From: Sinimarinibacterium sp. NLF-5-8
GTDB taxonomy: Bacteria; Pseudomonadota; Gammaproteobacteria; Nevskiales; Nevskiaceae
DNA: 64,000 nt
Assembly (NCBI RefSeq): GCF_010092425.1
Contig: NZ_CP048030.1
Location: forward strand, 1,499,501-1,563,500
Direction: 5' to 3'
The notes under the pieces are model-generated. The model was not told the origin of the DNA. It saw only the letters and a program-made list of their open reading frames with translations, and ran no database searches. Below, one piece after another: positions 15,610-51,809 of the stretch. Each line of letters opens with the position of its first letter. Position 1 is the first letter of the stretch. The translations under genes were made by a program, and so were the position numbers.

Positions 15610-17634
15610 TCAATCGACCAGGGTTGCGCCGCCACCGTCGCAGGAGAGGTTGGCACCCAGGTCAGTAACAGCAAGATCGGCGCCTAAAGTGCCAAGCAGT
15701 GAGTCAAGGATGGGATCGAGCAATCCTGTGATGACATCCTCCAGCAAGTCCATCACTGCATTGACGACGCTGGCCGACAACGAAAGCGTGCCTTCGAGCA
15801 GTCCTCCGCCCAGCGGTCCCGACGCAGCGCTTCGATAAGGTTGCAGACTGTTACGCAAGGTAGTCCCCAATCCATTCAGAACCGCAGAGGACGGCACATC
15901 CTGAAAATCCGGCTGATCACTGATTTCGGGCGGATTGGTATACATCAGCGTGGGTGACGACGAACCACCGACAGGGCCATCTACTTTCAAACCCAAGCCA
16001 GCAAGTACATTTCGCTTGGCAGTACTTCTCCCATTGGTGAGCCAAGTGCCGTTTTCTTGCTTCCATTGCTCATCTTCACATGTTCCTATTCCAAGTAGCT
16101 TGAAGCATTTCCTCGGTCTTACCTCACGGTAACCCAGTTCTACGATGGGCGCAGCATTGACTGCCGGTATGTTATTTGAAAAAACGTCTGCTTCGCTCAT
16201 TGTCCCGGCTCGAAGGTAAGCAACCGAAGTTTCAGCGGAAGTCTCTAGAGATTTCTCATTTCCACAGCCGTAATCTGTTACCCATCCTGCGGCAGATGCT
16301 GCATCAAGGCTTATCTGGATCGGTTGGCTCAATGCTTCCGCGTACAGCGCATTTCTTGGTGAGCAATTATTGTCACATATGGTGAGCACAGCTTCGAATA
16401 CATCCTTAATTAGATCGCCCACTGCACCTAGAAGATTAAAACTGCTAAATCCTGCGGAATTCAGAAAATTTACAATTGGATTCAATAATGGCGACAGCGC
16501 ACTTGTAAGGTCATTGAGCAAGTTAGTCACCCCGCTGAGATTGATAGAAACCAATGTTCTGACTTGTGCGGTGCGAACAAAAATCTTGTCTGGCCCCAAG
16601 GGATCAGCAGCCGCCAGTGCTGGATTTCCGATCGCTGAAGGCTGCATGTTTTCAATGACTTTGGCTTTGACCGAAACGGTAGCAATCCCCGGAATACCCA
16701 CCGTGGGCAAATCAGCGGCAACCACGTTGTTACCGTTGGCCAACTGCGCACCGCCCTGCACCAACTGCAACAGATTCAACGGTACGTCGAGCGCAGACGA
16801 AGGAGCGTTACTATCAACGCCGATCAAATCTCCGAGGGTGATCAGCGGCAAATTGAGCGGTAGTGCAAGCAAGCCATTGAGCGCCACATCCGCATCATTC
16901 GCACTCTGATTGTTTGGCAGTGCATCAATGGCCGCACCCAACAATTGACCTACAGCAATCGGGGCGCTTAACACCTGATCGTAGTTACCCACACCAATAC
17001 CGGTACGCACGGCCAGTGCATCCAGAAACGTCAGCAGGTTGATGTCGGTATTGAGCAGGCCGTTCCATGCGGCAACTGGCAGGTTGATGTTGCCACCGAG
17101 CATGCCGCCGACAATGCCGTTGAGCAGTGCGCTTTGCTCGGTATCGACCGTTGCCAATGTGCTGCGAATCGTCAGTCGTGCCAGCGCATCGCCCGCCACA
17201 GCGGTGGCATATGCGGAGAGGGTTGCGCGATGGGTAAACGGTAAAAAATGCGGCGGCTGTCCGGAAACCACGGCGCGTACGGCATTGAGTTGCGGATCGT
17301 CAACGCCGGCAGACACAAACCCGGTTGCCGCGCGCCACTGACCGCAGTCGAGATCAGTCAGCGCGCCTTTGGTGCCCAGATTGAAGCCTGCGTTGGCTTG
17401 TGCGGCAGGCTCGGCGTTGCTGCACGCGCGCGTGCCATCGGCCGCCACCAGCGATTTTGCCCCGGCCATTGCGGCCAGATCAGCGGCTTTTTGATACTCG
17501 CGCTTGTAGTAATACATGAAGCCGATATCGGCCAGCGACAACAGAATCACGCCAATGCTGATCGCCAGCGCCGCAAGAATGATGACGGCACCGCGTTGAC
17601 GATCGGCCGCTTGAAAAGATCGTTGTTTTTTCAT
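15610..17634 (-). CDS. TadG-like pseudopilin-associated protein, cassette 1
   Basis: A 674-residue protein with the Tad/TadE-G N-terminal motif: RQRGAVIILAALAISIGVILL, a single membrane helix after a short basic leader, then the conserved YYYKREYQKAADLAAMAG. The remaining 600 residues are a secreted or periplasmic domain, rich in Leu, Asn and Gly with several cysteines, lacking an obvious von Willebrand A motif (no MIDAS DxSxS). It resembles the DUF2134/Tad_C class of Flp-pilus proteins. ATG 17634 follows AAAGGTG; longer in-frame forms are rejected. Third gene of a TadE-TadE-TadG cassette that recurs upstream at 18934-22288. Confidence 0.75.
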   Translation of the reverse strand: MKKQRSFQAADRQRGAVIILAALAISIGVILLSLADIGFMYYYKREYQKAADLAAMAGAKSLVAADGTRACSNAEPAAQANAGFNLGTKGALTDLDCGQWRAATGFVSAGVDDPQLNAVRAVVSGQPPHFLPFTHRATLSAYATAVAGDALARLTIRSTLATVDTEQSALLNGIVGGMLGGNINLPVAAWNGLLNTDINLLTFLDALAVRTGIGVGNYDQVLSAPIAVGQLLGAAIDALPNNQSANDADVALNGLLALPLNLPLITLGDLIGVDSNAPSSALDVPLNLLQLVQGGAQLANGNNVVAADLPTVGIPGIATVSVKAKVIENMQPSAIGNPALAAADPLGPDKIFVRTAQVRTLVSINLSGVTNLLNDLTSALSPLLNPIVNFLNSAGFSSFNLLGAVGDLIKDVFEAVLTICDNNCSPRNALYAEALSQPIQISLDAASAAGWVTDYGCGNEKSLETSAETSVAYLRAGTMSEADVFSNNIPAVNAAPIVELGYREVRPRKCFKLLGIGTCEDEQWKQENGTWLTNGRSTAKRNVLAGLGLKVDGPVGGSSSPTLMYTNPPEISDQPDFQDVPSSAVLNGLGTTLRNSLQPYRSAASGPLGGGLLEGTLSLSASVVNAVMDLLEDVITGLLDPILDSLLGTLGADLAVTDLGANLSCDGGGATLVD

Positions 17635-17656
17635 GGTGCACCTTTGATCCACGCCA

Positions 17657-18136
17657 TTACACCTGTGCAACGGCACAGCCCACCAGTGGCCGGTTACCCC
17701 AGCCCACCGTACCGACAACCGGCAGGGTGATGGCAGGCAACATGCCCCGATACGGAAAGTTCACTTGTATGCTGATCTGCTCGGCGCTGCCGACCGTGCA
17801 GCGGTCGCCGTTGACCAGCGCGTTGGTGCCCTCAGGCAAGACCGGATAAGTGGCGCGCAGGCTGTCCTGTGCCACGCTGTTGGCCTTTTCCTGTTGTGCG
17901 TTTTGGTCAGCACTTTTGGGCAGGGCGCTGACCGCGCGCGCGGCGTCGCTGGCGGCGCGGGTGACAACCATCTGGGTATAGAACAGATCGCCAAAGGTGA
18001 CGATGCCATACAGCAAGGCAATCAGGATGGGCAAAACCAGGGCAAATTCAATGGCTGCGGCACCCCGTTGTGCGGCACCTTGTTGCAGGTGATGCGCGCG
18101 CGCGCGCAAGTGGCAGCCTGTGGCAAGGGTGTTCAT
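17657..18136 (-). CDS. TadE-like pseudopilin, cassette 1 second gene
   Basis: A 159-residue TadE-family protein. RGAAAIEFALVLPILIALLYG is the diagnostic pseudopilin-like segment, with conserved Glu at the fifth position of the hydrophobic stretch. It continues FGDLFYTQMVVTRAASDAARA. A C-terminal cysteine pair (DRCT and VGCAVAQV) may form a disulfide. The ATG overlaps the previous gene's stop by four bases. Close paralogue of the gene at 21159-21677, with the same TFGDLFYTQM. Confidence 0.82.
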   Translation of the reverse strand: MNTLATGCHLRARAHHLQQGAAQRGAAAIEFALVLPILIALLYGIVTFGDLFYTQMVVTRAASDAARAVSALPKSADQNAQQEKANSVAQDSLRATYPVLPEGTNALVNGDRCTVGSAEQISIQVNFPYRGMLPAITLPVVGTVGWGNRPLVGCAVAQV

Positions 18137-18762
18137 AGCGTGAGCGCTCGTCCGTCGATCTGCAGACTGGCTCTGCCGATCAAGGTGCTGGGAATCAAAA
18201 TACCAAATCCGGGAACAGCGGGGATTACCGGACGCTCGCCATATTTATATTCAAGTTCCACCACAACCCGGCAGGCAGCGGCACCGCCGCTGCCGCACAC
18301 TGGCGCAGTGCCGGTCAGATCACACAGGGCAGTCTGACCCGATCCATGCAGCGCATCACATTTCACTTCTGCCGCTGCGCAGTTGCCACTGGCATCCATC
18401 TGGCAGATCGAAACCACAACCACCGGCGCGCCCCAGCCATCCATCCATGAAGCTTGCCGCTGGGCAACAAAATGTGCCTGCCCCATGCGCGCCTGGTATT
18501 GGAACTCACCACGTTCGGTGGCGCTGCAAGCCTCAGTTGCGGGCTTGCCCAGCGCCGCTTCACAAGCCTGCGCCGGATACCGCAGCGCCGCGCGCACGCC
18601 ATCTTCTGCCGCGTGTTGCAGCCCCATGCGCATCAAAAAGATCAGGCCATAGGTGATCAACGCATAAAAAAGGGCAAAGAACACCGTAAACACCAATGCA
18701 AACTCAACGGCGGTTGCGCCTTTTTGCGTGTGTTTGCGCGAATGTGTTGCGGGGGTCTGCAT
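18133..18762 (-). CDS. TadE-like pseudopilin, cassette 1 first gene
   Basis: A 209-residue TadE-family protein with KGATAVEFALVFTVFFALFYA as its pseudopilin-like helix, then ITYGLIFLMRMGLQHAAEDG, nearly identical to the paralogue at 21674-22288. The secreted part has many cysteines (about eight), suggesting disulfides in the periplasm or outside the cell. It opens the downstream cassette. The 171-base gap before it carries a large inverted repeat and a 12-base motif shared with the other cassette. Confidence 0.82.
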   Translation of the reverse strand: MQTPATHSRKHTQKGATAVEFALVFTVFFALFYALITYGLIFLMRMGLQHAAEDGVRAALRYPAQACEAALGKPATEACSATERGEFQYQARMGQAHFVAQRQASWMDGWGAPVVVVSICQMDASGNCAAAEVKCDALHGSGQTALCDLTGTAPVCGSGGAAACRVVVELEYKYGERPVIPAVPGFGILIPSTLIGRASLQIDGRALTL

Positions 18763-18933
18763 GGCCTGCTCCGTGACGGTATCCCTAGGCTTGCGCCCAA
18801 GTGGATAACCATAAGATGAAGCGTGGCGTGGCGTCGAGGCGGTTTATCCGCCCAGCGGTAGCCGCCGGGCGGGTAAGCGTGAAAGCACGCGCGCCTGCTG
18901 CCGTATGACAGAAAGGGATATGGCAGACGAAAG
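18763..18933. promoter_or_regulatory. Gap between the two Tad cassettes with stem-loop and shared 12-mer
   Basis: A long imperfect inverted repeat (TTATCCGCCC at 18844-18853 against GGGCGGGTAA near 18867-18876) encloses a smaller hairpin GCGG-TAG-CCGC. CCGCCCAGCGGT at 18848-18859 also occurs at 22420-22431, upstream of the other cassette. A second hairpin, GCGTGAAAGCACGC, is beside it. There is no T run, so this looks regulatory or processing-related rather than a simple terminator. Confidence 0.4.
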
Positions 18934-21162
18934 TTACTGCACCAAAGCACCGCCGCCACAGTCGATGGACAGCAATTCCACATCAGCACGTCCCAGCTCC
19001 AGACCCAGGATGTCTCGCAGTGCAACGTTGAGCAGTTCACCCAGCCCAACCAGTATCGGTTTGAGCAAGGCGACGATCGGCTTGAGCAGTACACACAGCG
19101 CGCCGTTGCAGGCAAGTGTAGTTTTGTTACGGTCGAGAATGTCATTGACGTTGGCATTGTCCATCACATATTGCGGATGTGATGTCAGCAGCTTGGTCAG
19201 GTTGTGTTTGACACAGCCGTTCCAGTTCAGCAGCGATGACAGTAAACCCGCGCAGGATTGATAGCCGTTGGGCAACGTCGTGATGCCCAGAAGATCGAGT
19301 AGACTCCCTGGCGTTCCTGCGTAAAACTTCATCGCCTCTGAAAATGTGCCGTCGCGCCATGGAGTGACATCGTTGTTCGGGCAAATGAACAGGCCACAAG
19401 AAACTGGAATACTGCGCGGCATCATCCAGTCTTGTGTTGCCAGCGGATCCAGCCCGCCGGAACCCGTCCCGTTCAAAACCGCATCGATCACTTTGTCGAT
19501 GTTGTAAAAACCATTGACTTTGGTTTCTTCCAGATAAGCCTCGGCCAATTGCTTGATCTGCTCGTTTTTGTTGGGGCCGTTGTAGTCCAAATCGTCGTTG
19601 CCAACGGTGGCAGGTGGTCTGAGCAAGCCGCTGAGCAGATTGAGCAGGCCATCGACGATGTTGTCTACGGTGTTGGCGAGTTTGACGCTGTTGACCTTGG
19701 TGGTGCGCACGTCACCTTGTTTCATGTTGAGGGCGCTGGTGTCGTCGGTGTCCACCAATGCCTGAATGTGGGTTTTACCGGACAGTACCGGAATGTGCAG
19801 CAGTTTGATCAGGGTGTCTTCCTCAACGTTGGCCTCGCAACCTGCGCTGGATGACCAACGGTGTGATGCCGGCATTTTGCCCACACAAACGTTGGCGATC
19901 TTTGAGGTGACGACGATGTCGGCCGTCGGTTCGCCGCGATCGCACATCAATTGATCCAACTCACCCGTGGAAGAAGTCACGTCGATGGAAACAGGCAGGT
20001 TGACGCGGACGCCGAGCAAAGCGGTCAGCGGACGCAGAATCCCGCCGAGCAGTTGATCGGTATCAATATTCAGATAGGCGCGTACTTGCGCACTGTGCGC
20101 TGTGGTGCCTACCGGGCCGATGGCAACCGTCGGCGGCTCAACAATCCCTGCTTCCAACTTGACGCCCCCGATCACATCGAGCCCGGGAATGACGACACTG
20201 CGCCCTTGTGCACCAATGGCAATCGCCGTTTTGACCAGCGAGGCCAGGCCGAGTTGTACGTCCAGTGCAGAGCCGATGGGATCGGTCTTGCCAATACCCA
20301 GGAAGGTGAACAGACCGGTCTGCCCGTCACTGCTCCCCAGCGGGATTTTGACGGCACCGAGCCCGGCTTTGAGCAGATCAACGCTCAGTGCTTCCAGTTG
20401 CGCCCGAAGTACAGAGTCAGTCACAACCTGCGCAGAAACTTCCAACAACCGGGCAACCGACACGTCGGCAAGATCAAGCAGCCCTTCAGGGGTCAGTAAT
20501 TCCAGATTGCCAATCCCCACGGGTGCCAGCAGTCCCAGCAAACCGGATGGAGTGATTTTGGCGTTGACCAGTCCGGCGTGATCGAGCACGGTGAGTTTGT
20601 TTGCATCCAAGCCGACGCCAGCGAGAATTCGTCCCAAGGGGGCGTTTCCGTTGAGCCGCAGCAGTTGTGAACCCACCGAGAATGCGGCAGTCGCTCGCCC
20701 CGATGTGGCAACCGCAGAGGCACTGATGCGCGAGCGTTTGAAGATGAACCACGGTGGATAGCCGCTGATGTCCACACGGACAGCATTGATCGGAGTCTGG
20801 GCTGCGTCAAAACCGCTGGCGGCTTCCCAGTGACCACAGCTCACACCAGGGTCAATCTGATGCCCAGGTAAATTGCGCATGGCAATAGCGCGCGCTTTGC
20901 CCGTTGCCTGTGCGCAACGTGATTCTTCCCAGAGTTCTGACGAACCCGCCATGGCACCGAGATCAGCGGCGCGTTGATATTCACGCTTGTAGTAGTACAA
21001 AAAACCAATATCAATGATGCCCAGCAGCACAACCGCAATGGTCATTGCCAGTGCACCGATGAGGATAATCGAGCCACGCTGACGGCGGGCATGGCCTGAT
21101 AATGAACGCGGCAACGGACGCGGTGATGACGGTGGAGTCAAGCAAGACATAGAAGCTCTCAT
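18934..21162 (-). CDS. TadG-like pseudopilin-associated protein, cassette 2
   Basis: A 742-residue paralogue of the gene at 15610-17634. The core motif is RQRGSIILIGALAMTIAVVLL followed by YYYKREYQRAADLGAMAGSS, aligning residue for residue with cassette 1. The secreted remainder diverges more but keeps LDVQLGLASL-type segments, where cassette 1 has LDVPLNLLQL. The start at 21162 overlaps the previous stop (ATGA); ATG 21150 is an alternative. It has an unusually long 40-residue cytoplasmic leader. No VWA MIDAS is apparent. Confidence 0.75.
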   Translation of the reverse strand: MRASMSCLTPPSSPRPLPRSLSGHARRQRGSIILIGALAMTIAVVLLGIIDIGFLYYYKREYQRAADLGAMAGSSELWEESRCAQATGKARAIAMRNLPGHQIDPGVSCGHWEAASGFDAAQTPINAVRVDISGYPPWFIFKRSRISASAVATSGRATAAFSVGSQLLRLNGNAPLGRILAGVGLDANKLTVLDHAGLVNAKITPSGLLGLLAPVGIGNLELLTPEGLLDLADVSVARLLEVSAQVVTDSVLRAQLEALSVDLLKAGLGAVKIPLGSSDGQTGLFTFLGIGKTDPIGSALDVQLGLASLVKTAIAIGAQGRSVVIPGLDVIGGVKLEAGIVEPPTVAIGPVGTTAHSAQVRAYLNIDTDQLLGGILRPLTALLGVRVNLPVSIDVTSSTGELDQLMCDRGEPTADIVVTSKIANVCVGKMPASHRWSSSAGCEANVEEDTLIKLLHIPVLSGKTHIQALVDTDDTSALNMKQGDVRTTKVNSVKLANTVDNIVDGLLNLLSGLLRPPATVGNDDLDYNGPNKNEQIKQLAEAYLEETKVNGFYNIDKVIDAVLNGTGSGGLDPLATQDWMMPRSIPVSCGLFICPNNDVTPWRDGTFSEAMKFYAGTPGSLLDLLGITTLPNGYQSCAGLLSSLLNWNGCVKHNLTKLLTSHPQYVMDNANVNDILDRNKTTLACNGALCVLLKPIVALLKPILVGLGELLNVALRDILGLELGRADVELLSIDCGGGALVQ

Positions 21163-21677
21163 AATTGCGCAGCGGCACAGGAAACCAACTGCGTGGGCAT
21201 CCACGACAAGGTGTCCCCGACGAGCGGCAGTTTGATCGGCGGCAGCATGCGTAATTGATCAAACGGATACGTCACGCGAACGTGAAAAAAGTACGCATCA
21301 TCGTCGGCACCGCTGCAATCGCCAGTGCCGATTTGCACCACTGAATCCGACAGATCACGGATGCGCTGCTGACGCTGCTCATAGTTGCCGCCGCCAAGTA
21401 CACCGGAGACAACCGATAGCGCCAGCGATCGAACCAGTTCCGTCTCGATCAGCGGACGCTGTGCTTCAAGGTTTTCAGGATCAACCTCGTGGCGAGGCAG
21501 CAGTGTCACTGCACGCGCGCCGTCACCCACTGCGCGCGAAAGCGTCATCTGCGTATAAAACAGATCGCCAAACGTGACGATGCCGTAAAGCATCACCAGC
21601 AGCAGCGGCAAGATAAAAGCAAACTCAATCGCTGCTGCGCCCTTCTGTGCGCAATGGCGTGCGGTGCGGTATCTCAT
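21159..21677 (-). CDS. TadE-like pseudopilin, cassette 2 second gene
   Basis: A 172-residue TadE-family protein with KGAAAIEFAFILPLLLVMLYG and FGDLFYTQMTLSRAVGDGARA, paralogous to 17657-18136. Its longer mid-region contains a polar helical stretch (NYEQRQQRIRDLSD). The C-terminus LVSCAAAQL resembles VGCAVAQV of the paralogue. Overlaps both neighbours by four bases, so the cassette is translationally coupled. Confidence 0.82.
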   Translation of the reverse strand: MRYRTARHCAQKGAAAIEFAFILPLLLVMLYGIVTFGDLFYTQMTLSRAVGDGARAVTLLPRHEVDPENLEAQRPLIETELVRSLALSVVSGVLGGGNYEQRQQRIRDLSDSVVQIGTGDCSGADDDAYFFHVRVTYPFDQLRMLPPIKLPLVGDTLSWMPTQLVSCAAAQL

Positions 21678-22288
21678 AGCAGCATCGCCTTGCCATCAAG
21701 CAACAGGCGTGCTTGTCCAACCAGATGGTCGGGCGTCATTGCCGCCATACCAAACACCCTCGGCAACACCGGTTTTTCACGGTAGTTATAACGCAGCGTC
21801 ACCAGTACCTGACACGCGCCTGCCAGTCCGCGCCCGCAAGCCGGAACGGTGGGCATGTTCACGTTCTCACAAGCCTCGTTCACACATAGCGGCGCGTCTT
21901 CATCGGCGACGCAATCCACGCCAGACGCGCAGATACGCACATCAACCTGCGGTGGCTGCCAACCATTCATCCACCCAGCCTGTTCCGCTGCCCGCGCATA
22001 GGCGCTCGACATTCGGCTGGCAATCTGGAATTCCACGCTCTGTTCAGCACTGCACGGCACATTACGGTTCCATGCCTGGCAGGATTGGGCAGGAAATATC
22101 AGCGCCGCGCGCGCGCCCTCCTCAGCCGCATGTTGCAAACCCATGCGCATCAAAAAAATCAGGCCATAGGTCAGCAGGCCGTAAAACAGCAGAAAAAACA
22201 CCGGAAAAACCAGTGCAAATTCCACCGCAGTGGCGCCTGTTTGTGCGCGCCGGGCGTGAACACGCCGGATGAGGGTTTGTAGACGCAT
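21674..22288 (-). CDS. TadE-like pseudopilin, cassette 2 first gene
   Basis: A 204-residue TadE-family protein: TGATAVEFALVFPVFFLLFYG, then LTYGLIFLMRMGLQHAAEEG. About ten cysteines lie in the secreted part. It opens the upstream cassette and is preceded by a perfect dyad at 22333-22353. Closest relative in the window is the gene at 18133-18762, which implies duplication of the whole three-gene unit. Confidence 0.82.
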   Translation of the reverse strand: MRLQTLIRRVHARRAQTGATAVEFALVFPVFFLLFYGLLTYGLIFLMRMGLQHAAEEGARAALIFPAQSCQAWNRNVPCSAEQSVEFQIASRMSSAYARAAEQAGWMNGWQPPQVDVRICASGVDCVADEDAPLCVNEACENVNMPTVPACGRGLAGACQVLVTLRYNYREKPVLPRVFGMAAMTPDHLVGQARLLLDGKAMLL

Positions 22289-44337: not shown

Positions 44338-45177
44338 TTAACGCAGTAAGCTCAACACGTTCTGCGGCAACTGATTGGCCTGAGCCAGCATGGCCACGCC
44401 TGCCTGCTGCAGAATCTGTGCACGCGTCATGTTTGCCGTTTCCGCTGCAAAATCGGTGTCCATGATGCGCGAACGTGACTGCGACAGGTTCTCACTGGTG
44501 GTATTGAGGTTCTCAATCACCATTTCAAAGCGACTTTGCTGTGCCCCCAGATTGGAACGCTCGGTACCAACAGTCTTCAGGGCCGCGTCCAGTGTCGTCA
44601 ACGCAGCACGCGCACCGCTACCCGTTGCACCTGAAATATCCAGGCTCGCGAGCGCCAGACCAGAAGCTGTCAGGTTGGCCACACCACCAAAGTTGATGGT
44701 ATCCACACCCGCAGTGGCGTTGGCACCGACCTGGAACACCGCTTTGCCGCTGTTGAATGAACCGTCAAGCAGATTCACACCGTTGAAATTGGTTTGCCCG
44801 GCAACACGCGTGATTTCATCACGCAGCGCATTGAACTCTTTCTGCAGCGCCGCACGATCCGATGAAAAGTTGGTGGCGTTGGCAGACTGCACAGCCAGAA
44901 CACGCATCCGCTGCAAGCTCTTGCTGATGCTGCCCATTGCGCCTTCCGCAGTCTGCGCCAGACTCACGGCGTCCTGCGCATTACGAGCCGCCTGATTCAG
45001 ACCGTTGATCTGCGAGGTGAAGCGTTCAGAAATCGCCAGACCGGCAGCATCGTCCTTGGCGCTGTTGATCCGCAGCCCCGATGACAGACGTTGCAGCGAT
45101 TGCGCCAGCGAACCCTGGGAGGTGCTGAGATTGCGCTGAGCATTCAGAGAGGCGACGTTGGTATTGATTACTTGCAT
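44338..45177 (-). CDS. fliC: Flagellin
   Basis: Structural subunit of the filament. The 279-residue product is short: N-terminal D0/D1 ([41 protein letters not shown]) to about residue 140 and C-terminal D1/D0 ([32 protein letters not shown]) flank only about 50 residues of variable domain (residues 142-190). That small exposed region is rich in Ser, Thr, Gly and Asn and is the likely modification surface. AGGAG precedes the ATG; a sigma28 promoter lies upstream. One flagellin gene only is in the window. Confidence 0.97.
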
Positions 45178-45385: not shown

Positions 45386-46723
45386 TCAAACACGGGCAAT
45401 CACCCCTGTTTCTGCGGTGCTCATGAGCTTGGTTGCGACCAGGGCAACTTCGTATGGACTCAGCAGACTACGGGGGTCTTCATCGGCAAAATTATTGCGT
45501 CGCATGGCGGTATCGGTTCGTCCCGGGACAATGCAGTTGACACGAATCCGATCCGCCATCCATTCGTCCGCCAGCGCCTGCGTCATGTTGACGACACCGG
45601 CCTTGCACGCGGAATACACCGCGTATTCGGCACGACCTCGGGTAAATGACGAAGAGGAAAACTGCAAGAGCATCCCCTGGCTCTTTTGCAACGCCTGATA
45701 GCTTGCCTGCGCCACGTTAAACGCACCCAAAAGATTGACCGCGATTTGCTGCGCAACCTGATCGGATGGCTGTGCCGCCAACGCGCCTTTCACCAACAAA
45801 CCCGCAGTATTGACCACATGCGTCACCCGCCCCCAATCCGCACAGGCAGCATCTACGGCAGCACTGACTTGCGTCATTTGCGCAATATCACAGCCATTGC
45901 TGCGCGAAAGGCTGCGCGTCACACCGCCCGCTTCTTCAACGATTTGCACGATCGCGCGCCCAATGCCGCTGTGTCCACCAAAAACCAGCACATGCTGATC
46001 CCGAAAGTCGAGCCCGGTCATATGCGATGACAGGCGTTGCTGGCGAATACGAAACAGCTCATCGGCCAGCACCAAATCCACCGCATCAGTGATTTTGATA
46101 TTTTCAGAACTACCCTGAACGATCTTGATTGGACTGAGCGGATTGCAGGCCAGGTAAATGCCGCAATCGTCGGTATAACTGCCGATCCGATCGGCGCCGA
46201 GCTCTTCATAACACTGCACCAGCGCCGTGTACCGGAACGCTTGCGGCGTTTGCCCCCGATACAAATGGTCGCGCTTGGGAATGCTTTGAATCAGACCATC
46301 ACGCTCAACGATAATCGTATCCGCCGTTTTGATTGCAACATCCACAGCGTCGCAATAACGCAAAGCCTCAACCACATCATGCAAAATCTGCTGATCCAGA
46401 AATGGCCGTGCCGCATCATGCAAAACAACATAGTCAGGCACATCGGTTTTCAGATGTTGCAATGCCGCCCACGCAGAGGCCTGCCGGGAAGTGCCCCCCA
46501 CCACAACTTCTGCGTGCGTTCCGGCAAACATTTGCCGCACAAGATCCTGCGCATCGGCAGGCACCACAATCAAAATGCGCGCATCCGGTGCAAACGAGGC
46601 AATACAGGCAAAGCTGTGTTCCAGCACCGTTTTACCGGCAACCCGTACAAATTGCTTGGGAACCGGCGCCCCCAGGCGCGTCCCACTGCCGCCGGCCAGC
46701 AGCACATAAACCACCTCACTCAT
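45386..46723 (-). CDS. Bifunctional cytidylyltransferase / short-chain reductase (CDP-ribitol synthase type)
   Basis: A 445-residue fusion. Residues 1-230 are an IspD-like cytidylyltransferase: VLLAGGSGTRLGAPVPKQF, VVLHDAARPFLD, GQTPQAFRY and KITDAVDLVLAD. Residues 237-445 are a short-chain dehydrogenase with cofactor loop VFGGHSGIGRAI and catalytic YSACK. This architecture is that of Haemophilus Bcs1, which reduces ribulose 5-phosphate to ribitol 5-phosphate and activates it to CDP-ribitol, and of animal ISPD. It is unlikely to be the MEP-pathway IspD because of the fusion and location. ATG overlaps the upstream fukutin-like gene stop. Context: last gene of the flgL-fliC island. The exact polyol (ribitol or other) is inferred. 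Confidence 0.87.
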   Translation of the reverse strand: MSEVVYVLLAGGSGTRLGAPVPKQFVRVAGKTVLEHSFACIASFAPDARILIVVPADAQDLVRQMFAGTHAEVVVGGTSRQASAWAALQHLKTDVPDYVVLHDAARPFLDQQILHDVVEALRYCDAVDVAIKTADTIIVERDGLIQSIPKRDHLYRGQTPQAFRYTALVQCYEELGADRIGSYTDDCGIYLACNPLSPIKIVQGSSENIKITDAVDLVLADELFRIRQQRLSSHMTGLDFRDQHVLVFGGHSGIGRAIVQIVEEAGGVTRSLSRSNGCDIAQMTQVSAAVDAACADWGRVTHVVNTAGLLVKGALAAQPSDQVAQQIAVNLLGAFNVAQASYQALQKSQGMLLQFSSSSFTRGRAEYAVYSACKAGVVNMTQALADEWMADRIRVNCIVPGRTDTAMRRNNFADEDPRSLLSPYEVALVATKLMSTAETGVIARV

Positions 46724-48339
46724 GCCACGCCCCCTTCCTGAGATGTTTCAAGATACTTTTGCAATTCAGCGGCCGCCTGTAAAACCTGATCGCTCGCACC
46801 CTGCGCGCGCGCGCGGTGACGATGGGCATACTGCAAAGTGCGCGCAAAACGTTGCGGCTTGCGATCCTTGAGCGTCGTAAAAAACGACAACCGCAACACC
46901 AGCTGATAAACCGTCCCCCCCACCGCCATTGTCGAGGGTGATTCAATATGTGAAATATAGTCGGGATCAGACACCCGCCAATCACCAAAATTTTCTTGCA
47001 GATTTAATGCAAAATCCGCTGGCACATGAAAATCAATGCCCAAAAAAGAAACCCGCTTCAGCGAAAATGGCGTGAATGCAAACGTTTGAAGATAACCAAA
47101 CGCACTTTGAACCCCCGTCACATAACGGCCATCTTGTTCATGATAAATAAAAACATCAATCGAGGTTTGGGTGGGCAAATGCACACACGCCAAATGGTAA
47201 GTCTCCGCGCCCCGCAAATAATGGTATTTCACGTCGAATAAATCGCTGGCGCCCAATGCCTCAACAATATCAAACTGATTGCGCCATCCCAGCACCCCCA
47301 CATCAATATCCTTGTCATGTGACAGCAGCCCCCCTTCGCGCGCGTAACCCAAAAGCGTGCCTGAAACCAAAAACGGGCGCTGCCCAATCGACGCCAACAC
47401 TTTTTCCAGATCAACCAGTGCAACCGCAGCCTGCTGCGGATCAAAATGTGAAGATCCACCGGCGCTGCCCTGCACATCATCTCCGGTACCAAGCTCATAA
47501 AACTTGGCGCGCGCGATTTCATCTGTGCTGATCATGATCAGCAGCCGATCCAGCCAGGCGATGGACTCTGCGTGCTGCCCCAGATGGCAATGGCTTTCAG
47601 CCGCCAAAGCGCATTGATGCACGGCCACCTCAGGTGCGGTCAATAGCGTGCTGATGCTGAGCGCTTTTTCATAACAATCTGATTTGAGATAAAAATGCCC
47701 TGCACTTGCCGCCAAATACCCCAAGGCCTGCTGTAATGAATCCACGCCCACCAACTGTTGGCGAACGTACATGAAACTGGCCGCAAACGCTTCAAGGCGG
47801 GCCGAGCGACGCCGACCAAACTGCCGCTGCGTCATCATCTTGCCAATGGTCAGCCAATCCTCCGCCGTAAACGCATCGGGGTGATGCTCCAGCATCCCCA
47901 ACAAAAGATCGTAACGCTCGGTATCAATGGCCAATTCATAAGCCGCCATCCAATCGTATGTTGTACCTTGGCACGTTCTGAGTCGCGCAAACTCAGGTAA
48001 CTGATCCTCGGGGGCAATCACCGCGCGTAAAGCCCACTTGACCGGCCAGCGTTCCGGCAACTGTGCAAATGCAGCGGTTTGCGCGCGCGCGCTCAGCGCC
48101 TGATAAACGGCCAGCCATACGCGATGCTCATGAGAATCAGGGACGTTTTGCACACCCAAAGTGGCCAAATACACCACCAATCCACCCAGCCGCAGCGCGC
48201 GCGCGGTATTGAGCGTCTCCTCATCCATCAAGCCGTCATGCCAATGGGCAACAACCGCCGCTTCCAGGCTTTCAAAGTCATGGGCCAGCAACAACGCATT
48301 CATCTGAACGAGTCTTTGCAGGTTTTCCTGATGTGTCAT
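46720..48339 (-). CDS. Fukutin/LicD-like phosphotransferase with helical N-terminal domain (copy 1)
   Basis: A 539-residue protein. The C-terminal part (about residues 325-480) has the LicD/fukutin nucleotidyltransferase-fold core: PFLVSGTLLGYAREGGLL, the metal-binding HDKDIDVGV, TSIDVFIYHEQDGRYVTGVQ and HVPADFALNLQENFGDW. Members transfer phosphocholine or phosphoribitol from CDP carriers to glycans. The N-terminal 310 residues are largely helical, without a known domain, and are shared with the gene at 49254-50837 (RALRLGGLVVYLATLG against RALRLTAAVVYLATLG). ATG 48339 follows AAGGGTG. No membrane segment, so it is cytosolic. Base composition is more AT-rich than the flanks, especially 46930-47350. 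Confidence 0.83.
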   Translation of the reverse strand: MTHQENLQRLVQMNALLLAHDFESLEAAVVAHWHDGLMDEETLNTARALRLGGLVVYLATLGVQNVPDSHEHRVWLAVYQALSARAQTAAFAQLPERWPVKWALRAVIAPEDQLPEFARLRTCQGTTYDWMAAYELAIDTERYDLLLGMLEHHPDAFTAEDWLTIGKMMTQRQFGRRRSARLEAFAASFMYVRQQLVGVDSLQQALGYLAASAGHFYLKSDCYEKALSISTLLTAPEVAVHQCALAAESHCHLGQHAESIAWLDRLLIMISTDEIARAKFYELGTGDDVQGSAGGSSHFDPQQAAVALVDLEKVLASIGQRPFLVSGTLLGYAREGGLLSHDKDIDVGVLGWRNQFDIVEALGASDLFDVKYHYLRGAETYHLACVHLPTQTSIDVFIYHEQDGRYVTGVQSAFGYLQTFAFTPFSLKRVSFLGIDFHVPADFALNLQENFGDWRVSDPDYISHIESPSTMAVGGTVYQLVLRLSFFTTLKDRKPQRFARTLQYAHRHRARAQGASDQVLQAAAELQKYLETSQEGGVA

Positions 48340-48388
48340 ATTCACCCTTCCCACCGTGTTATTGCCGCTGACCCCCAAAGATCATGAC

Positions 48389-49192
48389 CTAACCTTCAGA
48401 AGGGGCGGACGGATGATCACCAAAATATAAATGACTCCGCAACATCACCTCCACGCCACGTGAAAAAATAACGTAGCGCTTACGCGGCCAGCCTCGATCA
48501 AAAGCGACCTGGGGCATTCTAAAATCAACCAGGCAGCCATTATCAACCGCCGTAATACCCAGCGCCAACGGCGTCCAATAAACCACATGCCCCTCGATAA
48601 ACGGATAGGTATGGGCACTCACGTTGCCGCCATCATAAATATTCGTGCTGCAAATCATGATGCCGTCATCAGGCAGCAAGCCCAGCAAGTGTTTAAAGTG
48701 CGCAGCGGGTTCTTCAAAATGCTCAATCACCTCACTGACAATCACAATCCGAGAAGGCGTGGCCTGTGAGACGGGCTCAAAATGCGCGACATCCTGCATG
48801 TTTTCCAGATCAACCAGTTTAATTTTAAGGCGTGGATATCGGTGCTGAACCCACTGCCAGTCCCGATTCGTTCCCGACCCAAAAAAGCTGATTTCACAGG
48901 CTTGATCTTGAATGATATCAATCGCCATCTGCGCCATATGAAACTCTCGCCCCGGACGCGCATCCGTAGCATTTCTCAAGCCTCTTAATTCGCCATCAAG
49001 TGTCTGTGGATTAATGTCCTTCGCAAAGCGCCCCACATTGGTGGGCAGCCGAATCAACCCACAATGCCGGCAGCGCGAAATCAGCAGCGTTTTGCCTTTA
49101 TAAGGAGCGTATTGACAAGTTTGCTTTTCAACGGCCGTTGGATGCCCACACACCACACACGGCTCAGGAGGATGCGGGTTTAATTCACGCAT
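48389..49192 (-). CDS. Zinc-ribbon class I SAM methyltransferase
   Basis: A 267-residue protein. The N-terminal CVVCG...CRHCGLIRLP knuckle (residues 12-50) is a zinc ribbon as in sugar-modifying methyltransferases. The rest is a Methyltransf_23-like domain: ISFFGSGTNRDWQW in the cofactor-loop position, KLVDLENMQDV, IVIVSEVIEHFEEPAAHF and LPDDGIMICSTNIYDGG. The glycine loop is atypical (FFGSGTN). Probably O- or C-methylates the carbohydrate or polyol made by its neighbours. It lies between the two fukutin-like genes, and the region is AT-rich. Confidence 0.8.
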   Translation of the reverse strand: MRELNPHPPEPCVVCGHPTAVEKQTCQYAPYKGKTLLISRCRHCGLIRLPTNVGRFAKDINPQTLDGELRGLRNATDARPGREFHMAQMAIDIIQDQACEISFFGSGTNRDWQWVQHRYPRLKIKLVDLENMQDVAHFEPVSQATPSRIVIVSEVIEHFEEPAAHFKHLLGLLPDDGIMICSTNIYDGGNVSAHTYPFIEGHVVYWTPLALGITAVDNGCLVDFRMPQVAFDRGWPRKRYVIFSRGVEVMLRSHLYFGDHPSAPSEG

Positions 49193-49253
49193 GATCGGTC
49201 TCTTTTAATCCATGAATAACGAGAATCATCATATTGTGTACACCAAAAGTTTT

Positions 49254-50837
49254 TCAAAACCCGGCACGCAATGCCTCAATCAATGCCAAAGACATGCCGC
49301 CGGGGCGACGATGATGCTGTTCAAGCAAATCAAGTGCGCGCGCGGCTTTAATAAAATGACCGTCCTCCAGCGCATGCAAGACCACACGCCGCCCCACCAA
49401 TTGATAAACCAAGCCGCCCACCGCCAGGGTTGACGGTGATTCCAAATGCGAAATGTATTCAGGGTCAGGAACCTGCCAAGCGCCATAGTTTTCAAACAAA
49501 TTATATTCGGGCGGGTCGGGGATATAAAAATCAATATCCAAAAACTGGATCTTGCGCAATTCAAAAGGCGTAAAAGCAAAGGTTTGGACAAAACCAAAGT
49601 CACTTTGCACCCCCGTGACCCAGCGATCGGCTTGCGCGTGATAAATAAACACGTCAATACTGATCCCGGTAAATAAATGCTGTACCGGAATATGATAGGG
49701 CCGCTCGCCGGTGGTGCGCACCTCGGCCCAAAACAGGTCACTGCCCAACAACGCATCGACAATACGCTGCGGATTTTCACCCGCAAAAACACCGACATCA
49801 ATATCTTTGTCGTGTGCAAGAAAATCCCGCTCACGCATATACCCCAGCAATGTGCCGGACACTAAGAAAATCGCCTGCCCTGCCGCCGACAGTACGCTCT
49901 GAAGATCCCGCAACGCCTGCGCCGCAGCATCCGGCGCAAATGGCTGCCCTCCCAGCTTGGCATGTTCCTCTGCTCTGAGTTGTTGTTGTGCTTGCAGCCA
50001 ATGGCGCCCGTCAACGGTCAACAAAGATTCCAAAAGCTGGTCAAGCAACGCAATGGATCGTGGCGTGTCACCGGCGTGGCATGCAATTTTTGCCAGGGCG
50101 CGGGTGCGCACAAATTGATGTGCCTCACCGCTGATTTGATGGGCAAATTGTTCGGCCTGTTCGTAGCAGCCCGACTTGAGAAAGCAGGCGCTGATCGGGG
50201 ACGCCAGCAGATTGCGAATGTCTTCAAACTGCTGCGTATTGGGCAAATGTTGGCGAATCATCGCCAGACTTCGCGCCAGCGGTTCAAGATCGTGCAGCCG
50301 CTTGACCAAGCCTTGCCGTCCGACGATGGCCTGTGCCAGCGCCAGAATTTCGGCCATTGGTGCTTTTCCTGCGAGCCGATGGCGAACCAGTTGCTCACAG
50401 AGTTTGAGCTGGTGCAGGTCAATGGACAGCTCAACGGCGTCAATCCAGTTTTGCTGCGTACCCCGGCAGCGTTTGAGCACGCTGACATCAAACCGCGAAC
50501 CCGGCGCTTTGAGTGCCTCCCGCAGCACCCAGGACACGGGCAGGCGCGCTGCGATCTGTAAAAACTCGGCGGTCAACCGACCTTGGGTCAGGCTTTGATA
50601 AACCGATAACCAGAATTTTCGATCATTGGGTTGCGCAAGATTTGCTGCGCCCAGCGTTGCCAGATACACCACTGCGGCGGTCAGACGCAGCGCGCGCGCC
50701 GCGCCAAAAGCAGCATCACCCAAAATCCCCAAAGGCGCTTGCGCGGTGATCAATTGTTCTGCGCTCAAATAATCCTGTGCCTGCAACAGCCGATCGAGCA
50801 ACAGCAGCCGTTGCCGCTCGTACTCCTCAATTTGCAT
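49254..50837 (-). CDS. Fukutin/LicD-like phosphotransferase with helical N-terminal domain (copy 2)
   Basis: A 527-residue paralogue of the gene at 46720-48339 with the same order of parts. Catalytic-domain pieces are IFLVSGTLLGYMRERDFL, HDKDIDVGVF, ISIDVFIYHAQADRWVTGVQ and FYIPDPPEYNLFENYGAW; the Asp pairs expected to bind metal are intact. The C-terminus PSTLAVGGLVYQLVGRR matches PSTMAVGGTVYQLVLR of copy 1. ATG 50837 follows AAAGGAG; a GTG one codon earlier is less likely. It starts 48 bases after flgL, so it likely shares the flagellar transcript. Confidence 0.83.
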   Translation of the reverse strand: MQIEEYERQRLLLLDRLLQAQDYLSAEQLITAQAPLGILGDAAFGAARALRLTAAVVYLATLGAANLAQPNDRKFWLSVYQSLTQGRLTAEFLQIAARLPVSWVLREALKAPGSRFDVSVLKRCRGTQQNWIDAVELSIDLHQLKLCEQLVRHRLAGKAPMAEILALAQAIVGRQGLVKRLHDLEPLARSLAMIRQHLPNTQQFEDIRNLLASPISACFLKSGCYEQAEQFAHQISGEAHQFVRTRALAKIACHAGDTPRSIALLDQLLESLLTVDGRHWLQAQQQLRAEEHAKLGGQPFAPDAAAQALRDLQSVLSAAGQAIFLVSGTLLGYMRERDFLAHDKDIDVGVFAGENPQRIVDALLGSDLFWAEVRTTGERPYHIPVQHLFTGISIDVFIYHAQADRWVTGVQSDFGFVQTFAFTPFELRKIQFLDIDFYIPDPPEYNLFENYGAWQVPDPEYISHLESPSTLAVGGLVYQLVGRRVVLHALEDGHFIKAARALDLLEQHHRRPGGMSLALIEALRAGF

Positions 50838-50885: not shown

Positions 50886-51809
50886 TCAACGAATAAAGTC
50901 AAACAAACTCAATCGCTGGATTTGGGCAAATGAGCTTTGCGCAGCTTGCAGTGACATCAACTCCCGTTGCAAGCGACTGGCGGCTTCGGCCACGTCCACA
51001 TCGCGTAAATCCGAAAGCGTGGCCTGTGCCGATATGTTTTGCTGGCTCAGTGAATCCTGTGCATCCTGAACCACGCCCAGGCGCAGTCCCACACTGGCGC
51101 GCGTGTTTGAAAAGCGCGATTCGGCGCGCCCCAATTGCGATAGCGCATCGGAAAAATCGGCTTGATCGATCGGTGCACTGCCACTGTTGGCCATTGCCAC
51201 GAAACGGTCGATCAATGAAACGACATCATCATCGCCGCCTGCGGGCGCAAACACCGGCTGACCTGGCTGTCCCAAGGCGATGATGCGCGAAGAATCAATC
51301 GGCAAATCCATGGTGTCGTTGTTCCCGGCGTAAGCCAGCGCAGGCGCGTTGTTCGGGTCGTAGGCAAAGGGCTGGACATCATCCTGGGTGCCGCCAAACA
51401 AAAAGCGTCCCTTGCCGTCATCACGATTGCCAATGGACAGCAACTGATCGCGCAAACCCGCCAGCTCGACACCAATGGCCGAACGGCTTTCCGCACTCTG
51501 GGTGCCCGTATTCAGCTGGATCACCAGCGTTCGCACGCGCGCAAGGACATTGATTCCATCGGCCATCGCGTTTTCCTGCAATCCCAGCCGGTGCTGCGCC
51601 GAACTGGCATTGGCCTGATAGCGCTGGTTTTGTTCAAGCGCCTGATCCACCCCCATCGCCGCGCTCCAGTCACTCGGCGCATCGGCTGCCGATTGCATTT
51701 TCTGCTGGCTCGAAAGCTGGGTCTGGGTCTTGAGCAGCGACTGCATCTGCTGCTGCATGAGACCCACACCGTTCTGGTGCATCAGCGCGGTAGAAACTCG
51801 CATCATCAT
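50886..51809 (-). CDS. flgL: Flagellar hook-filament junction protein FlgL
   Basis: Second junction protein between hook and filament. The 307-residue product has flagellin-like ends: RVSTALMHQNGVGLMQQQMQ at the N-terminus and LSDLRDVDVAEAASRLQRELMSLQAAQSSFAQIQRLSLFDFIR at the C-terminus. Three ATG codons in a row (51809, 51806, 51803) follow AAAGGAGAG. 13 bases after flgK. Confidence 0.95.
   Translation of the reverse strand: MMMRVSTALMHQNGVGLMQQQMQSLLKTQTQLSSQQKMQSAADAPSDWSAAMGVDQALEQNQRYQANASSAQHRLGLQENAMADGINVLARVRTLVIQLNTGTQSAESRSAIGVELAGLRDQLLSIGNRDDGKGRFLFGGTQDDVQPFAYDPNNAPALAYAGNNDTMDLPIDSSRIIALGQPGQPVFAPAGGDDDVVSLIDRFVAMANSGSAPIDQADFSDALSQLGRAESRFSNTRASVGLRLGVVQDAQDSLSQQNISAQATLSDLRDVDVAEAASRLQRELMSLQAAQSSFAQIQRLSLFDFIR

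Follow-up and report, generated by a model that had tools for sequence, protein, structure and literature searches.

Between flgL and fliC, in the flagellar gene cluster of Sinimarinibacterium sp. NLF-5-8 (Gammaproteobacteria, Nevskiaceae), lie four genes whose products probably add a polyol phosphate to flagellin or to another part of the filament. The window in which this island was analyzed is a stretch of 64,000 nucleotides (contig NZ_CP048030.1, positions 1,499,501 to 1,563,500), and coordinates given below as plain positions refer to it. The original prediction, made from the letters of this stretch, had described a fused cytidylyltransferase/short-chain reductase, two LicD proteins (LicDa and LicDb) and a zinc-ribbon methyltransferase (MT): all are present, co-directional and on the minus strand, and the HDKDIDVG motif is intact in both LicD proteins as it had reported (Table 1).

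Following the frames of the window, the order on the minus strand is flgK-flgL-LicDa-MT-LicDb-IspD/SDR-fliC-flaG-fliD, where SDR stands for short-chain dehydrogenase/reductase. The names flgK, flaG and fliD are a reading of the frames without a profile scan, and the assignment of the two flagellin-domain genes to FlgL and FliC is likewise our own. LicDa may start at GTG 50840 or ATG 50837, downstream of AAAGGAG, and LicDb perhaps at ATG 48339 instead of TTG 48378, judging from its frame. LicDb and IspD/SDR overlap by 4 bases and the remaining gaps from flgL to IspD/SDR span 10-61 bases in the frames as listed, so that one operon continuing from flgL is likely; 208 bases then separate IspD/SDR from fliC. 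The exact pattern of a sigma-28 flagellar promoter has no match in the window. GC content is 51-56% in the island genes, 61-63% in flgJ and flgK and 54-57% in fliC and fliD; because fliC and fliD are also low, GC alone fails to mark the island as horizontally acquired.

Table 1. The island genes and their two flagellar neighbors, in window coordinates
Gene and product	Position	Strand	Length and domain scores
flgL, hook-filament junction protein, upstream border	50886..51809	-	307 aa; Flagellin_N 56.1, Flagellin_C 34.6 bits
LicDa, TPR-like N-terminus + FKRP/LicD domain	49254..50837	-	527-528 aa; Pfam LicD 23.5 bits
MT, zinc-ribbon class I methyltransferase	48389..49192	-	267 aa; Methyltransf_23 24.8 bits
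LicDb, LicDa paralogue	46720..48378	-	552 aa from TTG or 539 aa from ATG 48339
IspD-SDR fusion, predicted CDP-ribitol synthase of Acs1/Bcs1 type	45386..46723	-	445 aa; IspD 160.9, adh_short 109.3 bits
fliC, flagellin, proposed acceptor	44338..45177	-	279 aa; Flagellin_N 156.1, Flagellin_C 97.7 bits

The two LicD paralogues are 40% identical. LicDa scores above the cut-off of the Pfam LicD family (PF04991; 22.6 bits) and LicDb under it (16.9 bits), and a six-frame search of the organism's own genome with PF04991 gave no match at E up to 0.001. FKRP is the sole sequence match of LicDa in the PDB at E up to 10 (E 0.02). A structure model of LicDa built from 25 aligned proteins (the two window proteins and 23 homologues) has a mean predicted local distance difference test score (pLDDT) of 91.5 and a predicted TM-score (pTM) of 0.88, with seventeen helices in residues 6-295 and a mixed domain after them. 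The top fold match of this C-terminal domain is human FKRP (Z 16.4, root-mean-square deviation 3.1, 156 residues, 20% identity), followed at Z 12-13 by aminoglycoside and lincosamide nucleotidyltransferases and MenT1; Foldseek gives 13 matches at E up to 0.001, every one an FKRP chain. Structure prediction thus bears out the FKRP/fukutin-like fold that had been proposed for these proteins. Four aspartates, D344, D346, D348 and D396 (numbered from GTG 50840), are invariant in all 25 aligned proteins, LicDa and LicDb included. In the sequence alignment of LicDa with FKRP the DxDxD stretch of the human protein stands opposite D344-D348, the FKRP numbering and the pairing of D416 with D396 being our reading. 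For FKRP itself, D362, D364 and D416 are named as conserved catalytic residues, and the mutants D360A, D362A, D364A and D416A were assayed (PMC6965139).

The helical half of LicDa resembles a tetratricopeptide repeat (TPR) domain. When the N-terminal 300 residues are modeled alone (pLDDT 91.4), their fold matches are led by TPR proteins, namely LGN, Rap, MamA and kinesin light chain. Since the best of these reaches Z 12.9 and Foldseek returns nothing under E 0.001, we consider 'TPR-like' a fair label; no TPR profile scores over its cut-off in this region.

The fused enzyme comprises an IspD domain (residues 1 to about 228) and an SDR domain (about 237-445). The best solved matches of its IspD half are two ribitol-5-phosphate cytidylyltransferases, 6xhp (E 1.1e-31) and 4jis (2.6e-31), whereas 3n9w, a proteobacterial IspD of the methylerythritol phosphate (MEP) pathway which we take to be that of Escherichia coli, matches 15 orders of magnitude more weakly (6.8e-16). 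A separate MEP-type ispD is found about 770 kb from the island (G000:C1:775308), and its matches fall in the reverse order: 3n9w 9.8e-57, 4jis 2.5e-22, 6xhp 1.6e-14. The genome contains a third, weak match to PF01128 (31.3 bits, L067). These comparisons mark the island IspD half as a second copy that has diverged and comes closest to the ribitol kind, and a role of the fusion in the MEP pathway is unlikely given the separate gene with its opposite order of matches. The SDR motifs FGGxxGIG, Ser and YxxxK are kept in the window fusion and in the 22 other fusions aligned with it.

MT scores under the Methyltransf_23 cut-off of 27 bits, and its search against solved structures yielded nothing convincing (two matches at E 0.1). 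Its CxxC pairs and FFGSG motif are kept in six homologues, 53-55% identical, every one of which adjoins LicD and IspD/SDR genes in a flagellar locus (five in Hydrogenophaga and one in genome G823, described below). For part of the family, this links the methyltransferase with the system.

A link to flagella had been drawn from this single locus, and it holds across genomes. A scan of GTDB contigs with LicDa alone gave no matches; repeated with an alignment of four proteins, it returned 49 loci, 24 with near-full-length homologues (L009-L032) and 25 with partial ones that cover mainly the LicD domain (L033-L057). Flagellar genes were matched in 22 of the 24 near-full-length loci versus none of the 25 partial ones (Fisher p 5.6e-12, for rows that are related and not independent). 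The context queries included FlhF and FlgE from L009, FliA from L010 and FlhA from L005, whose flagellar identity comes from Pfam domains (FlgE_D2, and SRP54 and sigma-70, the last two taken to indicate FlhF and FliA) and from the annotation of the Octadecabacter FlhA; the contexts of L033-L057 were searched solely with this query set, without annotation. Because the queries came partly from L009 and L010, the Hydrogenophaga loci (5 of 24 rows) match partly by construction, and the pairs L019/L026 and L023/L030 are near-duplicates.

The positions of LicD relative to flagellar genes are diverse. It follows one or more fliC copies in L014, L015, L016, L017, L023, L024, L027, L028 and L030, is divergent from fliC in L018, L020, L022, L031 and L032 and convergent with it in L021, and comes after fliA in Hydrogenophaga (L009-L012, L025); in L029 it is downstream of flgK/flgL, and in L013, a Nevskiaceae metagenome-assembled genome (MAG), it lies past fliT and on the other strand. 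The gene adjoining LicD can be seen in 22 loci, and in all of them it encodes a predicted synthase of a cytidine diphosphate (CDP)-polyol: IspD or IspD/SDR in 20 (in L014 the contig ends within IspD) and a TagD-like protein in L013 and L031, on the opposite strand in the latter. In L016 and L032 the contig ends at LicD. For the TagD-like proteins the best model is glycerol-3-phosphate cytidylyltransferase, whose cut-off is passed in L031 but not in L013 or L005. Partial relatives show another context, with a TagD-like gene in 18 of 25 loci and no IspD or SDR match of at least 30 bits in any of them (a weak IspD match occurs in L056).

Two further searches extend this picture. Run with IspD/SDR at an E limit of 1e-45 over 397 other genomes of a phylum sample, a reverse search matched three: G823, a new case in which LicD, IspD/SDR and MT stand beside fliA, flhF and flhA; G666, probably the genome of L022; and G559, whose full-length fusion (39% identical) is accompanied by ABC transporter, polysaccharide export and capsule-synthesis genes and a PF04464 phosphotransferase, without a long LicD. 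Among six plasmid records, that of Octadecabacter arcticus is flagellar, with flagellin, a TagD-like cytidylyltransferase and a LicD protein in a row followed by a sulfotransferase-like gene; the relative lies among capsule-type genes in the Phaeobacter record and in the one read of four from Paracoccus. The recurrence of the island in other genomes rules out both chance assembly and a single-genome artefact.

Additional genes accompany LicD in some of these loci. Sulfate-activation genes occur in L023 (10934-15406) and, belonging to the same clusters, in L030. Near flagellar LicD, L015 (11050-11931) and L005 (10120-10863) have sulfotransferase-like genes. Together these suggest sulfated versions of the modification. 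In L015, L017 and L018 GT41-type genes come after the LicD-IspD/SDR pair, with TPR in L015 and L017, and the 1033-aa protein of L017 also matches NodZ/O-FucT. Related proteins of about 238 aa lie beside flagellar LicD in two alphaproteobacterial MAGs (L018 7008-7724, L029 7004-7714); the L018 protein, scanned against Pfam at E up to 0.01, matched no family.

A tree of the LicD domain (55 rows) separates the two kinds of loci. Two LicD-like open reading frames lacking the motif, both in L040, were dropped beforehand; the own-genome copies, L059-L062, L064 and L057 (under the 40-bit limit) were kept outside, and L053 and L032 are cut by contig ends. The 25 flagellar rows, LicDa among them, and L019/L026 occupy one side of a branch with support 82/85, 25 short rows form another group (94/99), and three long-branched rows fall outside. 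The flagellar label requires 2 changes on this tree, owing to L019/L026, versus 18.4 in shuffles; a single origin of the label is not rejected (approximately unbiased test, p 0.227), yet not demonstrated. LicDa and LicDb both fall inside the flagellar set, at a position without support.

The system is rare. Three of 85 genomes matched in a sample of the order, including the organism itself and one weak match with stops (E 8.7e-4), and 5 of 369 in a sample of the class, where only the window's own genome gave a full-length match. None of ten congeners has the LicD protein, so that the island is unique within the genus as sampled. Stretches of about 10 kb after flgL in these congeners, reaching fliC in 6 of 10, gave no match to an island protein; of ten proteins scanned there, seven fall into families (usher, SCPU, PapD, outer-membrane transport, GDSL lipase and phosphodiester glycosidase/phosphatase).

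From the gene content, the folds, the conserved catalytic residues and the recurrence beside flagellar genes, we infer an acceptor, a polyol, an order of steps and a role for methylation. Modification would take place in the cytoplasm, before export. As predicted from family membership, the SDR half would reduce ribulose 5-phosphate to ribitol 5-phosphate, and the IspD half would join this product with CTP to form CDP-ribitol. The TPR-like N-terminus of the long LicD proteins may then hold flagellin or its complex, as location, fold and catalytic residues suggest, while ribitol phosphate passes from CDP-ribitol to a flagellin hydroxyl, or to a sugar that flagellin already carries, with release of CMP; LicDa and LicDb could act sequentially, as fukutin and FKRP do. 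The methyltransferase might cap or tune the added group, in what is the weakest of these steps. In some lineages glycerol phosphate would be added, because a gene like that of glycerol-3-phosphate cytidylyltransferase replaces the IspD/SDR fusion. In its boldest form this amounts to ribitol-phosphorylation of a bacterial protein, with one or tandem methylated ribitol phosphates placed on serine or threonine of flagellin, sugar-free and in the cytoplasm, and with glycerol-phosphate versions elsewhere; we advance this form tentatively, as a possibility with somewhat more against it than for it.

Each element of the mechanism has a precedent. Enzymes of the Acs1 type, also called Bcs1, have an SDR as their reductase. 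Haemophilus influenzae Acs1 is a bifunctional enzyme with the same pairing of an IspD-type cytidylyltransferase and a reductase, the latter converting ribulose 5-phosphate to ribitol 5-phosphate (PMC4873967). Acs1, however, serves capsule synthesis whereas the island fusion adjoins fliC; among the sequences compared, the nearest capsule-locus fusion is the 39% identical one of G559. In humans, ISPD makes CDP-ribitol, and the LicD-domain transferases fukutin and FKRP put ribitol phosphate on a protein-borne glycan (PMC4873967, PMC6965139); FKRP is also the top fold match of LicDa. The human enzymes act in the Golgi on an O-mannosyl glycan, and FKRP has a stem domain and a zinc-finger loop where LicDa has its TPR-like helical domain.

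The closest characterized relative by architecture is CpsC (Cps7C) of Actinobacillus, a glycerol-3-phosphate polymerase with a predicted N-terminal TPR and a LicD/FKRP-like domain, which uses CDP-glycerol as donor and in which two aspartates aligned with those of FKRP are crucial (PMC11666461). CpsC has 378 residues versus 528 for LicDa, and its capsule locus and capsule-linker product differ from the flagellar setting of LicDa; relatives from Actinobacillus and Bibersteinia (L035, L047, L039) also belong in our tree to the group of short rows associated with TagD and are separate from the flagellar set (94/99, 82/85).

Among modifiers of flagellin, Caulobacter FlmG contacts its substrate through its TPR part. 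It is a cytoplasmic enzyme with an N-terminal TPR and a C-terminal transferase, for which two-hybrid contact with flagellins is reported (PMC7591256); its transferase is a GT-B (GT41-like) glycosyltransferase, unlike the FKRP-like catalytic domain of LicDa. The type A flagellin of Clostridioides difficile and the b-type flagellin of Pseudomonas aeruginosa PAO1 carry a phosphodiester group for which a CDP-activated donor is proposed, and their clusters, like the island, contain nucleotidyltransferase and methyltransferase genes (PMC10714395, PMC11833859). The C. difficile cluster lies downstream of fliC (PMC10714395). The donor proposed for both systems is, though, CDP-(N-methyl)threonine, and the transferase is TagF-like or the PA1091 phosphotransferase (PMC10714395, PMC11833859). 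Both systems also include a ThrH-like phosphotransferase and a glycosyltransferase, none of which is in the island. The PAO1 authors propose that methylation of threonine precedes transfer (PMC11833859), for MT merely an analogy. By analogy with these systems, the island can be regarded as combining CDP-ribitol-type chemistry with features of CpsC, FlmG and the C. difficile and PAO1 systems, and hence as a variant of flagellin phosphodiester modification. The original prediction knew of no described system of its kind: we found no description of such a combination in the open-licence literature, but phosphodiester groups from CDP donors are already known on the flagellins of C. difficile and PAO1.

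Several observations weigh against the mechanism as drawn, in whole or in part. The point that touches its second step is that the TPR assignment is a structural one, and a Z of 12.9 could be reached by a helical-repeat arrangement alone. Direct transfer of polyol phosphate to the protein is possible but somewhat doubtful; a sequence of two steps, in which a glycosyltransferase encoded elsewhere adds a sugar to flagellin and the LicD enzymes then add polyol phosphate to it, has a substantial chance of being correct, if one a little short of even. It would parallel fukutin and FKRP on dystroglycan and CD0244 as proposed on C. difficile flagellin. Loci L015, L017 and L018 have GT41 genes close to the island, and L018 has rhamnose genes as well, an arrangement consistent with a sugar as the acceptor. 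FKRP and CpsC use glycan or polyol-phosphate acceptors (PMC6965139, PMC11666461), and in C. difficile type A and PAO1 b-type the phosphodiester is on N-acetylglucosamine or a deoxyhexose (PMC10714395, PMC11833859). On the other side, scanned against Pfam at E up to 1, the four island proteins matched no glycosyltransferase family, ThrH-like enzyme or TagF-like transferase, and GT41 is seen in only 3 of 24 related loci in the flanks read. The earlier statement that no ordinary glycosyltransferase is present thus stands for the island itself and not for all of its relatives. Genome-wide, the organism has no GT41 match at E up to 0.001, with Caulobacter controls positive, in a search aimed at this family and at Maf glycosyltransferases (PF01973); the latter likewise gave no match, a null that says little because only archaeal controls matched. 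The GT41, rhamnose and sulfate-activation genes nearby make it probable that sugars or sulfate play a part in some carriers.

The identity of the donor is also subject to doubt. It is rather unlikely, if far from negligible, that the LicD enzymes use a CDP-polyol other than CDP-ribitol, based on another pentitol or a tetritol, with the remaining steps as described. The IspD domain fits neither NCBIfam family fully, as the ispD model gives 172.2 bits (cut-off 181.3) and the ribitol-5-phosphate model 146.9 (cut-off 166); with the ribitol model under its cut-off and the ispD model scoring higher, we keep the ribitol assignment tentative. The IspD half also matches the MEP-labelled structures 3f1c (1.3e-30), 4kt7 (6.1e-28), 2vsh (1.9e-27) and 3okr (7.7e-27), within 4-5 orders of magnitude of the ribitol enzymes; some of these labels may be old names of ribitol enzymes, and others are not. 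TagD-like genes moreover substitute for the fusion in L013, L031 and Octadecabacter. Against another polyol stand the two closest solved relatives, which are both ribitol enzymes, and the related fusion that shares a capsule locus with a PF04464 phosphotransferase. The CDP-ribitol of the original prediction accordingly keeps the nearest structures, the separate MEP ispD and this capsule-locus relative in its favor, with the margin over MEP-labelled structures as its weak side.

It is quite unlikely that the enzymes decorate lipopolysaccharide, capsule or another envelope polymer, their place in a flagellar operon reflecting co-expression only. CpsC, the relative nearest in architecture, does polymerize glycerol phosphate for a capsule linker (PMC11666461). 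The TagD-like genes of the short relatives and the two plasmid relatives amid capsule-type genes point the same way, as do the near-identical loci L019 and L026 (2 of the 24 near-full-length homologues), which have no flagellar match in the flank read, in genomes that do hold flagellin genes. There (L019 10894-14430, with its counterpart in L026), a long LicD and IspD/SDR are joined by genes for a second, weakly LicD-like protein, a class V aminotransferase, a methyltransferase and a TagD-like protein; because of these other genes and the missing flagellar match, the LicD enzyme may serve another acceptor in these two loci. The envelope explanation is opposed by a flagellar association that spans Burkholderiales, Alphaproteobacteria and Nevskiaceae and involves differing sites: the flgL-fliC interval, after fliC, after fliA and beyond fliT. 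As an observation in its own right, the L019/L026 locus could represent a further phospho-polyol or amino-alcohol pathway.

Less probable still, since flagellin passes a narrow export channel that would leave little room for a chain, is that the LicD pair builds a short, teichoic-acid-like poly(ribitol phosphate) on it, one enzyme priming and the other extending; one LicD suffices elsewhere, as none of the 24 near-full-length loci has a second LicD match of at least 30 bits in the flank read, and what favors a chain is the presence of two paralogues here together with the polymerase activity of the TPR-LicD protein CpsC (PMC11666461).

If the mechanism is true, polyol phosphates would join the known chemistry of flagellin decoration, and LicD/FKRP enzymes would be found acting on a bacterial protein filament. 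The human relatives of these enzymes are involved in muscular dystrophy, and soluble models of them would then be available from bacteria. The sugar-free version, if true, would be a bacterial counterpart of ISPD-fukutin-FKRP acting on protein. The family, which has plasmid-borne relatives labelled hypothetical proteins, moreover gains a testable function from this mechanism. More speculatively, phosphodiesters would coat the flagellum with negative charge, which could affect motility, phage attachment and recognition.

Elsewhere in the window (15610-22288, minus strand), two sets of tad pilus minor-subunit genes adjoin each other as if the set had been duplicated. Their TadE genes are at 17657-18136 and 21159-21677 and their long Tad_C proteins at 15610-17718 and 18934-21204, and by our reading each set contains one more TadE-like frame.

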